This document shows, piece by piece, positions 34,211 to 38,028 of a stretch of 38,038 nucleotides of DNA. The position numbers and the translations under genes were made by a program. This stretch comes from Sedimentisphaerales bacterium (GTDB taxonomy: Bacteria; Planctomycetota; Phycisphaerae; Sedimentisphaerales; Anaerobacaceae): assembly GCA_030611315.1 (NCBI GenBank), contig JAUWPZ010000016.1:1-38038 (forward strand), read 5' to 3'. The notes beneath the pieces were generated by a model that made no database searches, had not been told where the DNA came from, and saw nothing but the letters and a program-made list of their open reading frames with translations. Each line of letters opens with the position of its first letter. The first letter of the stretch is position 1.

Positions 34211-34328
34211 TTATACCCTTAAGGGTATAAATTCCCGCGATTAGGATTGTAAATTATTGTTTTAAGGTTACTACCTGTGGCACAAGTTGCCCGCGAACCC
34301 GCCGCGGCGGGGGAAATTTTAATTGAGA
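34211..34328. repeat. Dispersed repeat, copy 2 (uninterrupted), with perfect palindromes
   Basis: It starts with the perfect 20-base palindrome TTATACCCTTAAGGGTATAA (34211-34230) and then CCCGCGA. The core TTACTACCTGTGGCACAAG (34268-34286) is followed by GCCCGCG and a second perfect palindrome CCCGCCGCGGCGGG (34298-34311). It shares order and sequence with 5247-5583, but without the MITE. The G-run after the second palindrome is the nearest purine-rich stretch to the next gene's start. Confidence 0.75.
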
Positions 34329-34343
34329 AGTATATATATTGTT

Positions 34344-35327
34344 ATGGTAATAGTCGGAATAATGCCGGTGTACGAGGAAGTTGACTGGGTCGAATGGGCA
34401 GTAGAGGGTATCATTGATTTTGTAGATGAATTGATTATAGCGGAAGGCTACCAAGGTCCGGCGTGGCATTTTGGCACCTGCCGTTCACAGGACGGCACTA
34501 TAGAAATAATCGAAAAACTTGCCAAGAAGTACGACAAGATAACGCTTACACAGTGCCAATCGAGGCGGCATGTTTTGAACGGCAAGGCAGCATCGCACAA
34601 TCATGCCTTGGCAATATCGAAGCGTATCAAAGATGCTGATTGGTATATGATATGCGACTGCGATGAATTTTATTCGGACAGGCAGAAAATAACGATTCGA
34701 GAGGCGCTCGAGACTGCTGCACAGGACGCGTTCAAAGTAAATGCGCGGTATTTTTTCTATAACTTCAAATACTTCATTTATATGCACCTAAGCCGGTTTT
34801 TCAGGGTGACGGAAGGTATGTTTTTCAGGCCCGGCCAATATCCATTTTATGCAAATTCGAAGGCATATTACGAAGAAAGCCCGGCGGTTTTATTGCTGGA
34901 AGATGACCCGATGTTTCATTACTCACTTACAAAGAGGCCTTGTTGCGAAATCAATCGTCGCCTCATGGAATATTGTGCGGTTCAACGGAACAGGTGGGTT
35001 TTTGACTGGATTGACCAGGTGTATTTGCAGTGGACGCCGGAGAGGGCTGAAGAGATATATGAGTTGAACAGGAAGCGGTTTAATGGCCAGGGCGGGATAT
35101 TTTTCGGTGGGTGCCATGATGCTCAGCGTTTACAGATATACGAAGGCGAACACCCCGGTGTGCTGGATAATCATCCCTACCGTCATATAGAAGATATCAG
35201 ACAGATTCATTGGCCTGCGAAGCCTGCCTATAAGTATATTACGATGCGGCATCGAGCTTCGCACTACGGTCTGCGCTTCGGCAGAAGTGTAAAATCCGTC
35301 ATTCGGAAAGTTGCGGGATGTATTTAG
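34344..35327 (+). CDS. Glycosyltransferase family 2-like protein
   Basis: ATG 34344 gives MVIVGIMPVYEEVDWVEWAV, a usual GT-A opening. A TTG at 34323 with a GGGGGA run upstream is the alternative start. The protein has about 327 residues. The nucleotide-sugar region contains DWYMICDCDEFYS, whose Asp-x-Asp would bind the metal. Later segments (RYFFYNFKYFIYMHLSRFFR) resemble planctomycete and cyanobacterial GT2-like proteins without a membrane anchor. The QSRRHVLNGKAASHNHAL segment is family-like. The acceptor and donor are unknown. It follows the GT4 gene after a repeat-filled 144-base gap. Confidence 0.75.
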   Translation: MVIVGIMPVYEEVDWVEWAVEGIIDFVDELIIAEGYQGPAWHFGTCRSQDGTIEIIEKLAKKYDKITLTQCQSRRHVLNGKAASHNHALAISKRIKDADWYMICDCDEFYSDRQKITIREALETAAQDAFKVNARYFFYNFKYFIYMHLSRFFRVTEGMFFRPGQYPFYANSKAYYEESPAVLLLEDDPMFHYSLTKRPCCEINRRLMEYCAVQRNRWVFDWIDQVYLQWTPERAEEIYELNRKRFNGQGGIFFGGCHDAQRLQIYEGEHPGVLDNHPYRHIEDIRQIHWPAKPAYKYITMRHRASHYGLRFGRSVKSVIRKVAGCI

Positions 35328-35457: not shown

Positions 35458-36183
35458 ATGAAGTATTTGAAAAGTCTGTTCAAAAGGTGGGTGTATCATA
35501 AAAAATGCGAAAGGTTTTATTCACAATTCATAAAACCCGGAGATTTGGTTTATGACATTGGAGCAAATATGGGAACTAAATCTCGTTTGTTTTCTAGGTT
35601 GGTTGGAAGGCGTGGGAAAGTTGTCGCCATTGAACCACAAAGCGGTTGTATGCGAGAATTGAGAAGTAAATTTTCGAAGACAAAGAATATTGAGTTGGTG
35701 CAAAAGGCTATTGGCAAAACGAATGACATTCTGGAGATGCACATTTGCAATTTTCCCACGCTATCCTCATTATCCAAAGATTGGATCAAAAAAGCACAAC
35801 ACTATAGACGTTTCAGGCAAGAAGCAGACTGGTCGCAAACAGAAAAAGTGGATGTTACAACGCTCGATGAGCTAATTTCGGAATATGGAATTCCAAAATT
35901 TATAAAAATCGACGTAGAGGGCTATGAAAAAGAGGTGGTTTCCGGATTGTCAAAGAGCGTACCGTGCTTTCTTTCGGTAGAATTCATTCCAGAGTTAGCT
36001 GAAGAAACCAAGCAGTGTCTTGAGTGCTTAGAGAGATTGGGACATATCCGATGTAACTATTCACTTGATGGGTCGATGAAGATGGAATTCGATGATTGGG
36101 CTCCAATTGATGATGTTATTAAGCAGATAGGCGGATTAGAGAAAGGGAAAGCCTGGGGCGATGTATATATTAAGCTGGGCTGA
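35458..36183 (+). CDS. FkbM-family methyltransferase
   Basis: This 241-residue protein has the SAM-binding motif I VYDIGANMGTKSRLFSRLV near residue 31 and the acidic end of strand beta-2 in VVAIEPQ. The FkbM signature VDVTTLDELI..IPKFIKIDVEGYEKEVVSG lies at about 130-165. FkbM enzymes O-methylate sugars and polyketides, so modification of the exopolysaccharide fits the locus. The N-terminal 30 residues are basic (KSLFKRWVYHKKCERFY). The gene is more AT-rich than those before it. The 130-base gap upstream contains only short repeated ATTTGCGATTTTCGATT-type phrases. The next gene starts 3 bases after its stop. Confidence 0.88.
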   Translation: MKYLKSLFKRWVYHKKCERFYSQFIKPGDLVYDIGANMGTKSRLFSRLVGRRGKVVAIEPQSGCMRELRSKFSKTKNIELVQKAIGKTNDILEMHICNFPTLSSLSKDWIKKAQHYRRFRQEADWSQTEKVDVTTLDELISEYGIPKFIKIDVEGYEKEVVSGLSKSVPCFLSVEFIPELAEETKQCLECLERLGHIRCNYSLDGSMKMEFDDWAPIDDVIKQIGGLEKGKAWGDVYIKLG

Positions 36184-36186
36184 ACG

Positions 36187-36927
36187 TTGCGGGAGACAGA
36201 AGAACTTTTGGATAAGAAAAGAAAAGTGTACATTAGCGGTCAGTTGGGAAATCAGTTGTTGAGATGCTTCATCATTATAGCGGACAGCCTGGAAAATAAT
36301 TACGGAATAGAGGCTATTACAGTAACAAAGTGCCCAGATTATTTGGAGCAATTACTTGAATTAAGGGTCGAGACCAATTCACAGCCGGGAGACATAATTA
36401 GCGAAGTTGACCACAATTCAGAAGGACACGTTCATAAATTGTTCAAGTACAGAACTCGCATTCTTGATGAGGGCTGGGTGAAGCTCAAACAACCGGAGAG
36501 TTTTGTTCGGGCCCGAATGTGTGTTCACATGCGTGGTATGGATAAGAAGGTAGCGCCGCTGCAATGGTATTACAAAAAGGCCAAAAGTATCTCTGATAAG
36601 GATACAGAAATATATGTGTGTACTGATGATAAATGGAGTAAGCGTTTATTGAAAATCTGGCTAATAAGTACAGGTATTTCCGGCATCAGTTTTACCAACC
36701 AAGACGCCGTTAGAGACTGGTTTACGCTGCTGCATGCCGATACAATATATTGCTCATCATCAAGTTTTCCCCTGAGCACGTTGTTATTCGACCCCGACAA
36801 AGAGGTTGTTGTCTGCAGCCGTAAATCGACCAATTATGATTATCGCATAGAGACCGGCAAGATAGCAGAGTTTCCTTTTATTGAGACTGCTATGGAGTAC
36901 TGTCCGAATTTGCGATTTGAGGATTAA
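36187..36927 (+). CDS. GT11-like (alpha-1,2-fucosyltransferase-like) glycosyltransferase
   Basis: This 246-residue protein has features that line up with GT11: SGQLGNQLLRCF near the N-terminus (GGLGNQMFQYA type), CVHMRGMDK (the VHIRRGDY donor-binding loop), WYYKKAKSI, EIYVCTDDKW and ADTIYCSSSSFPLSTLLF (the late N/S-S-S-F motif). Length is slightly short for the family and the R-R-G-D motif is altered to R-G-M-D, so activity on GDP-fucose is uncertain. The start is unclear: TTG 36187 is only 3 bases after the previous stop, and TTG 36208 or GTG 36226 are alternatives. A gutted paralogue lies at 37953-38028. Confidence 0.65.
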   Translation: MRETEELLDKKRKVYISGQLGNQLLRCFIIIADSLENNYGIEAITVTKCPDYLEQLLELRVETNSQPGDIISEVDHNSEGHVHKLFKYRTRILDEGWVKLKQPESFVRARMCVHMRGMDKKVAPLQWYYKKAKSISDKDTEIYVCTDDKWSKRLLKIWLISTGISGISFTNQDAVRDWFTLLHADTIYCSSSSFPLSTLLFDPDKEVVVCSRKSTNYDYRIETGKIAEFPFIETAMEYCPNLRFED

Positions 36928-37039
36928 TCCGTATATGGAGTTTTACAATAATAAGCGGCTATGACAAACACACTATGTAGTAACACCACAGCTTAATACC
37001 TTAAACAACCGGTTTTTTGGTCTTGACAAGTGGGAGTAC

Positions 37040-37075
37040 CTTAGAGACCTAAAAGTAAGAATAAAAACTAAATGG
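37040..37075 (+). pseudogene. Relic of a methyltransferase gene 5' end
   Basis: Bases 37040-37075 repeat the start of the gene at 37089 with substitutions. The relic would read LRDLKVRIKTKW, against LKGLKIRIEAKL in the intact gene. The two copies are 52 bases apart, and the relic carries the ribosome binding site (GGAGG) of the intact gene at its edge. It suggests a former paralogue deleted down to its first dozen codons. Confidence 0.4.
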
Positions 37076-37088
37076 AGGTAATAATACT

Positions 37089-37952
37089 ATGCTTAAAGGC
37101 CTAAAAATAAGAATAGAAGCCAAACTGGCCAACAAATCTACTAGAGAAGTGGGTTATAAGGAACGCAGCTTTCAGGATGTCATAAACCAGAATTATCATA
37201 TAATGAATCCTGAGCAAAGATTAATTGTTGATGTTGCAAAGAATTACTGTAATAAAGAACACTATTTTTTGGAATTGGGATGCGGTGCAGGAAGAAATCT
37301 AGAATGTCTCAGACAACATGGTTATAATAAACTTTACGGAATAGATGTCAGCAGGGAAGCAATAAATGTTGCAAAGCATTATTATCCTAATCTAGCAAAA
37401 GTGGCCCATCTTAGGTCAGGTTATATACAGGAAATACTTAATGAATTTGAAGATAATGAATTTGATGTCGTTTATTCAGTCGCTGTGTTACAGCACATTC
37501 TCTCTGATACAGAGGATATCTTTTACGAAATGTCCCGAATAGCGAAAAAATTTATTATTACTATTGAAAGCGATTTATATGAACAAGAAAAGAAAAATGA
37601 GGAGTTGGGCTTTGATCCTAAGGAACGTGTTGCAAGAGACTATAATGCAATATTTTCAAGTCTCGGTTTTGAGCAAATTGTAGTATTTGGTTGTTGGGAG
37701 GTCCCTGTAAAACTAAACGATATATCGGAGCATTTTACACAAGATAAATTCGATATGCTGGAAGAGATGAGAGATTTCATAGTGAAAAATGGACGTTGCC
37801 CAACGGCAGGCGAGGCCGATGGGTTATTTAAAAACAATTTAAATGTATACGAGGAGAAATTTGGCTCCTGGCTCTTAGCGTTAGAAGCATGCGGAATAGA
37901 AAAGCCATACGCTGGCCAGGCGTATACTGTACGCGTCCTTCAAAAAAAGTAA
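37089..37952 (+). CDS. SAM-dependent methyltransferase with an inserted HEAR/HNH_repeat-like segment
   Basis: This 287-residue protein is preceded by TGGAGGTAATA. Motif I FLELGCGAGRNLECL lies at 60-74, the acidic residue in LYGIDVSREA at 82-91, motif IV in FDVVYSVAVLQHI at 125-137, and strands run to VVFGCWEVPVK at 198-208. This is a class I methyltransferase fold. Residues about 218-272 then read like a homing-endonuclease-associated repeat: EEMRDFIVKNGRCPTAGEA, then YEEKFGSWLLALEACGI. The usual last strand (AYTVRVLQKK) follows, so the repeat sits between the final two strands. That combination is unusual. The gene is AT-rich and probably acquired. Substrate unknown; glycan modification is inferred from context. 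Confidence 0.8.
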   Translation: MLKGLKIRIEAKLANKSTREVGYKERSFQDVINQNYHIMNPEQRLIVDVAKNYCNKEHYFLELGCGAGRNLECLRQHGYNKLYGIDVSREAINVAKHYYPNLAKVAHLRSGYIQEILNEFEDNEFDVVYSVAVLQHILSDTEDIFYEMSRIAKKFIITIESDLYEQEKKNEELGFDPKERVARDYNAIFSSLGFEQIVVFGCWEVPVKLNDISEHFTQDKFDMLEEMRDFIVKNGRCPTAGEADGLFKNNLNVYEEKFGSWLLALEACGIEKPYAGQAYTVRVLQKK

Positions 37953-38028
37953 TATCGGCGGACAACTGGGGAACCAATTGTTGAGGTGCACTGTCCGAAT
38001 TTGCGATTTGAGGATTGATTCGTATATG
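37953..38028 (+). pseudogene. Gutted copy of the GT11-like gene
   Basis: Directly after the methyltransferase stop, the sequence encodes IGGQLGNQLLRC, like SGQLGNQLLRC at the start of the gene at 36187. At 37990 it jumps to 27 bases identical to that gene's 3' end (36899-36925), followed by the similar GTATATG. The interior, about 630 bases, is missing and the join is out of frame. The tail is identical while the head is diverged, so two sources or gene conversion are likely. Confidence 0.7.

Follow-up and report, generated by a model that had tools for sequence, protein, structure and literature searches.

A HEAR (HNH_repeat) domain inserted in the beta6-beta7 loop of a class I methyltransferase encoded in a Sedimentisphaerales exopolysaccharide locus

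The window analysed here, a stretch of 38,038 nucleotides from a Sedimentisphaerales bacterium whose genome is a draft of 221 contigs, carries close to its 3' end a gene in which a methyltransferase is fused to a HEAR (HNH_repeat) domain. This gene, its parts and its 5' neighbours, all on the forward strand, are as follows.

34,323 to 35,327, forward strand: GT2-like glycosyltransferase, weak match (Pfam)
35,458 to 36,183, forward strand: FkbM-type methyltransferase (Methyltransf_21; Pfam)
36,187 to 36,927, forward strand: 5' neighbour, protein without a Pfam family (open reading frame list, Pfam)
37,074 to 37,079, forward strand: ribosome-binding site GGAGGT, 9 bases 5' of the ATG (read from the sequence)
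37,089 to 37,952, forward strand: methyltransferase-HEAR fusion gene, ATG start, 287 amino acids (open reading frame list and Pfam)
37,089 to 37,691, forward strand: core of the class I SAM methyltransferase, residues 1-201 with strands beta1 to beta6 (Pfam, homologue alignment, full-length model)
37,692 to 37,931, forward strand: expanded beta6-beta7 loop, residues 202-281 (alignment of homologues)
37,740 to 37,904, forward strand: HEAR/HNH_repeat domain, residues 218-272, Pfam match 222-271 (Pfam and structure prediction)
37,923 to 37,949, forward strand: core resumed past the insert, with strand beta7 and the last residues (279-287, TVRVLQKK region; homologues, full-length model)

The GT2-like protein and the FkbM methyltransferase upstream agree with the exopolysaccharide or glycan locus that an earlier sequence-only reading of this DNA had proposed. 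From its motif, we take the product of 36,187-36,927 to be possibly a glycosyltransferase. Of the proteins scanned in the vicinity of the fusion gene, none was recognised as a restriction or defence protein. The contig ends 86 bases 3' of this gene, in a rearranged repeat, and the locus is visible from its 5' side alone. The repeat (37,958-38,028) is a rearranged copy of the 5' neighbour, corresponding to 36,235-36,267 and 36,894-36,937, in which a start piece, GGQLGNQLLRC, is joined straight to the last codons, CPNLRFED (91% identity over 44 bases); it has no match on any other contig of the genome. Just 5' of the fusion gene, positions 36,994-37,080 look, when read by eye, like what is left of a lost gene at its 3' end, LNNRFFGLDKWEYLRDLKVRIKTKWR followed by a stop, and the last part of this remnant resembles the start of the fusion methyltransferase gene.

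The 287-residue product is a class I SAM methyltransferase, having both the family HMM match, to Methyltransf_11 (PF08241) at residues 61-154 with an E-value of 2.2e-17, and the seven-strand fold, with a best VIA Z-score of 19.5 against methyltransferases over a span within residues 23-286. The core motifs ELGCGAGRNL, GID, AVLQH, IES and ARDY all lie in residues 1-201. Among residues that are invariant or nearly so in homologues, E62, G64, G68-R69-N70-L71, A132-V133-L134, H136, E160, R183, Y185, F189 and R282 are retained, and the SAM-site motifs are intact. Four positions that are invariant in 15 relatives (R42, S43, E114 and S141) are E, Q, Q and T in the fusion protein, the alignment around 42-43 being less certain; these changes would be compatible with an altered substrate side. 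The product matched no nuclease family in Pfam, and its 14 matches with an E-value of up to 1 do not include the N6_N4 DNA methylase family PF01555, which a planctomycete DNA methylase (L032) matches at 8e-55. A PADLOC match to mad2 (E-value 2e-10) was set aside, since it covers the shared SAM-binding core alone and is also given by an ordinary homologue.

Plasmids and phages searched with the protein, and genomes and viral contigs scanned with an alignment, yielded the family of methyltransferases of about 200 residues, about 30-40% identical, to which the core belongs; the scans of genome contigs and viral contigs with the fusion protein as lone query gave no matches. Family members occur in haloarchaea, Bacilli, rhizobia, Rhizobium phage 16-3, Chloroflexota, Omnitrophota, one planctomycete, a Nitrosopumilus MAG and viral contigs, and are 31-36% identical to the fusion protein. 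The nearest named family is TIGR03587, the pseudaminic acid biosynthesis-associated methylase, which scores 49 bits for the fusion protein and 55.6 bits for a relative from Alkalibacillus, the fusion protein being below the curated cut-off of 112 bits. Both TIGR03587 and this family, with members such as Alkalibacillus salilacus L116 and the planctomycete L061, have the class I core of the fusion protein, with the same SAM motifs and the same order of strands.

The genomic company of this family was observed directly. Genes of nonulosonic-acid type (NeuB/PseI, CMP-sugar synthetase, PseC, PseF or PseG-like) lie within 4 kb of the methyltransferase in 12 of about 20 non-haloarchaeal homologue loci, as located by tblastn with the neighbours as queries; NeuB, the cytidylyltransferase and the DegT-type aminotransferase were checked with Pfam, and PseG was named from the look of its sequence, with no family match. 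The haloarchaeal members, which make up most of those fetched, have none of these sugar genes nearby. Methyltransferases are known from nonulosonic-acid clusters, for example PtmH, which N-methylates legionaminic/pseudaminic acid derivatives, and another, non-homologous to it, encoded next to pseF (PMC13317340). PtmH is likened to the present family by its kind of genomic association. Many members of TIGR03587 and of the gathered family stand in nonulosonic-acid gene clusters, whereas the fusion gene lies outside such a cluster. NeuB (PF03102) has no match in the source genome, which is 93% complete, and the same search gave matches in 9 of 14 control genomes; a nonulosonic-acid substrate would thus be unavailable by the known route, and the substrate in this organism is probably another sugar.

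The HEAR domain is inserted in frame into the beta6-beta7 loop of this core, and both the fusion and its exact place are directly established. From beta6 to the conserved beta7 arginine there are 80 residues in the fusion protein versus 11-15 in 15 aligned homologues, and in about 90 related loci beta6 is followed by a short loop and then RVF or an equivalent; a HEAR profile built in this analysis gave no match in any of them. In the full-length model beta6 spans residues 194-201 and beta7 residues 279-286, with a pLDDT of about 96, so that the insert does lie between the last two strands, as had been read from the sequence. The insert itself is modelled with a pLDDT of about 40-70 and its predicted orientation relative to the core is not fixed. 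When core homologues and HEAR fragments were aligned together, the HEARs came out misplaced, and this alignment was left out of the structure prediction.

The draft genome of 221 contigs and the contig end 86 bases past the gene, in a rearranged repeat, raise the question of whether a HEAR gene fragment was joined to a methyltransferase gene by the assembly. Such an artefact would require two joins, both in frame and both at the exact loop edges, with a beta7 strand of the right family restored, and it is therefore highly improbable. The main rival to a lid or contact role of the domain is a passive insertion, in which recombination within a mosaic glycan locus placed a segment coding for HEAR in a tolerant surface loop, where it would serve no selected function. 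It would account for a fusion seen in one genome alone and flanked by gene remnants on both sides, and for the higher GC3 of the insert compared with the core (30/72 versus 56/204, Fisher p 0.027). However, the intact reading frame, domain boundaries and HEAR core motif speak against a long period of neutral drift, and the edges of the insert fall exactly between two strands. We consider this rival possible but rather unlikely.

The segment is a member of PF18780, the homing endonuclease associated repeat, by score, at 30.2 bits (E-value 5.7e-7) over residues 222-271 and profile positions 5-54 of 54; a segment of 63 residues searched alone reached 33 bits (E-value 7.6e-8), and the gathering cut-off is 26 bits. 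The HEAR assignment of residues of about 218-272, first made by eye, is thus borne out across the full domain, which is also the only PF18780 match in the genome. Folded alone, with an alignment of 24 HEAR relatives, the segment is predicted to form four helices (218-234, 240-246, 251-258 and 261-267; pLDDT about 88-91). The model gave no significant Foldseek match (best E-value 0.4), a search for a solved HEAR structure to superpose it on gave no clear candidate, and its weak VIA matches, to DsrC (Z 6.3) and to helix-turn-helix domains of LexA type (Z about 3), may reflect a common arrangement and nothing more.

Searches for HEARs elsewhere covered 294 genomes of the phylum, 161 of the order and 397 of the class (overlapping sets), with at most 30 loci opened per search and the proteins assigned by Pfam on a sample and by eye for the others. 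The HEAR proteins opened in these surveys are mostly HNH, Mrr-type and MTES_1575-type nucleases, restriction proteins, a ResIII helicase, DPPY-type N6_N4 DNA methylases with a C-terminal HEAR and arrays of several HEARs, together with some HEAR proteins that end in a C-terminal domain without family assignment. On viral contigs, HEARs occur mostly in HNH nucleases and other nuclease-like proteins; L154, the nearest relative found among viruses, shares 42% identity with the fusion's HEAR over the domain. With the HEAR segment as query, the phage search gave no match and the plasmid search gave weak matches (best E-value 0.003), chiefly haloarchaeal and several of them annotated as HNH endonucleases. 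No functional study of the HEAR domain was found in the literature. A second methyltransferase of the fusion's kind with a HEAR was not found among the HEAR proteins opened in the phylum, order and class surveys, nor among the about 90 relatives; within what was searched, the fusion is so far seen in this one draft genome alone.

A planctomycete DNA methylase with a DPPY motif and a single C-terminal HEAR is recurrent (L030, L031, L032, L036, L170, L172, L216 and L220); L032 was confirmed by Pfam and the other seven were assigned by similarity or by eye.

Does the HEAR of the fusion protein still bind nucleic acid and aim the methyltransferase at DNA or RNA? The HEARs opened in the phylum stand mostly in DNA enzymes (HNH, Mrr, REase_MTES_1575, ResIII helicase). 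With the HNH, Mrr and REase_MTES_1575/DUF559 nucleases the fusion shares a domain of 50 residues, predicted in the fusion to form four helices, and the GR-PT and Y---FGSW--AL--GI motifs. The GR-PT and FGSW motifs and a basic residue directly before FGSW are retained, and we counted the GR-PT motif and the basic residue against the lid or docking reading. The N6_N4 DNA methylases (L032, L170 and L172) are a precedent for a methyltransferase and a HEAR in one protein. In these, however, the methylase belongs to a different family (PF01555) and the HEAR is appended at the C-terminus instead of being inserted. Nuclease HEARs usually come in tandem next to a nuclease domain, and most of them are more basic, whereas that of the fusion is single, acidic and inside an enzyme fold: its net charge is -4 versus -3 to +6 (mean +2.5) in a hand-picked set of 24 other HEARs, which would be unfavourable for DNA binding. 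The core is not of DNA-methylase type, its relatives adjoin sugar genes, and no restriction or defence gene was recognised in the neighbouring proteins scanned. Targeting of DNA or RNA by the HEAR thus appears improbable; more doubtful again is the reading that a HEAR still able to recognise nucleic acid has made a sugar-type methylase of the exopolysaccharide locus into one that modifies DNA or RNA under sequence guidance, or whose target is a glycan linked to nucleic acid. The DNA or RNA modification suspected from the sequence is unsupported, because the product has no DNA-methylase domain and a single, acidic HEAR, and the core is nearest to methylases associated with pseudaminic acid.

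The reading that we favour, with a probability of roughly one half, is a glycan methylase that has taken up the HEAR at the mouth of its active site, as a lid or contact domain. In class I folds the beta6-beta7 loop is on the substrate side, the face at which strands beta4, beta5 and beta6 terminate. In this member of a core family tied to nonulosonic-acid sugar synthesis, the HEAR was inserted in frame in this loop; the substrate would most likely be a sugar, nucleotide-sugar or lipid-linked glycan of the adjoining exopolysaccharide locus. The acidic, single HEAR would no longer read DNA but cover or shape the substrate entrance, or dock to a partner protein. A role as substrate-side lid, also suggested beforehand, fits better than DNA or RNA targeting on the basis of position and loss of positive charge, whereas the full-length model does not fix where the HEAR sits.

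The fusion is a clear-cut example in which a module known from DNA enzymes has entered the presumed substrate side of an unrelated enzyme, and its well-sampled relatives without HEAR make the effect of the insertion testable by a simple deletion. Attention is also drawn to a family of uncharacterised methyltransferases that stands next to nonulosonic-acid genes in bacterial and viral sequences and is abundant in haloarchaea. In the latter (L057-L136) the compact methyltransferases are widespread and partly carried on plasmids. In Rhizobium phage 16-3, p028 (L018:2998-3432) is a shortened member of the family adjoining the immX genes.
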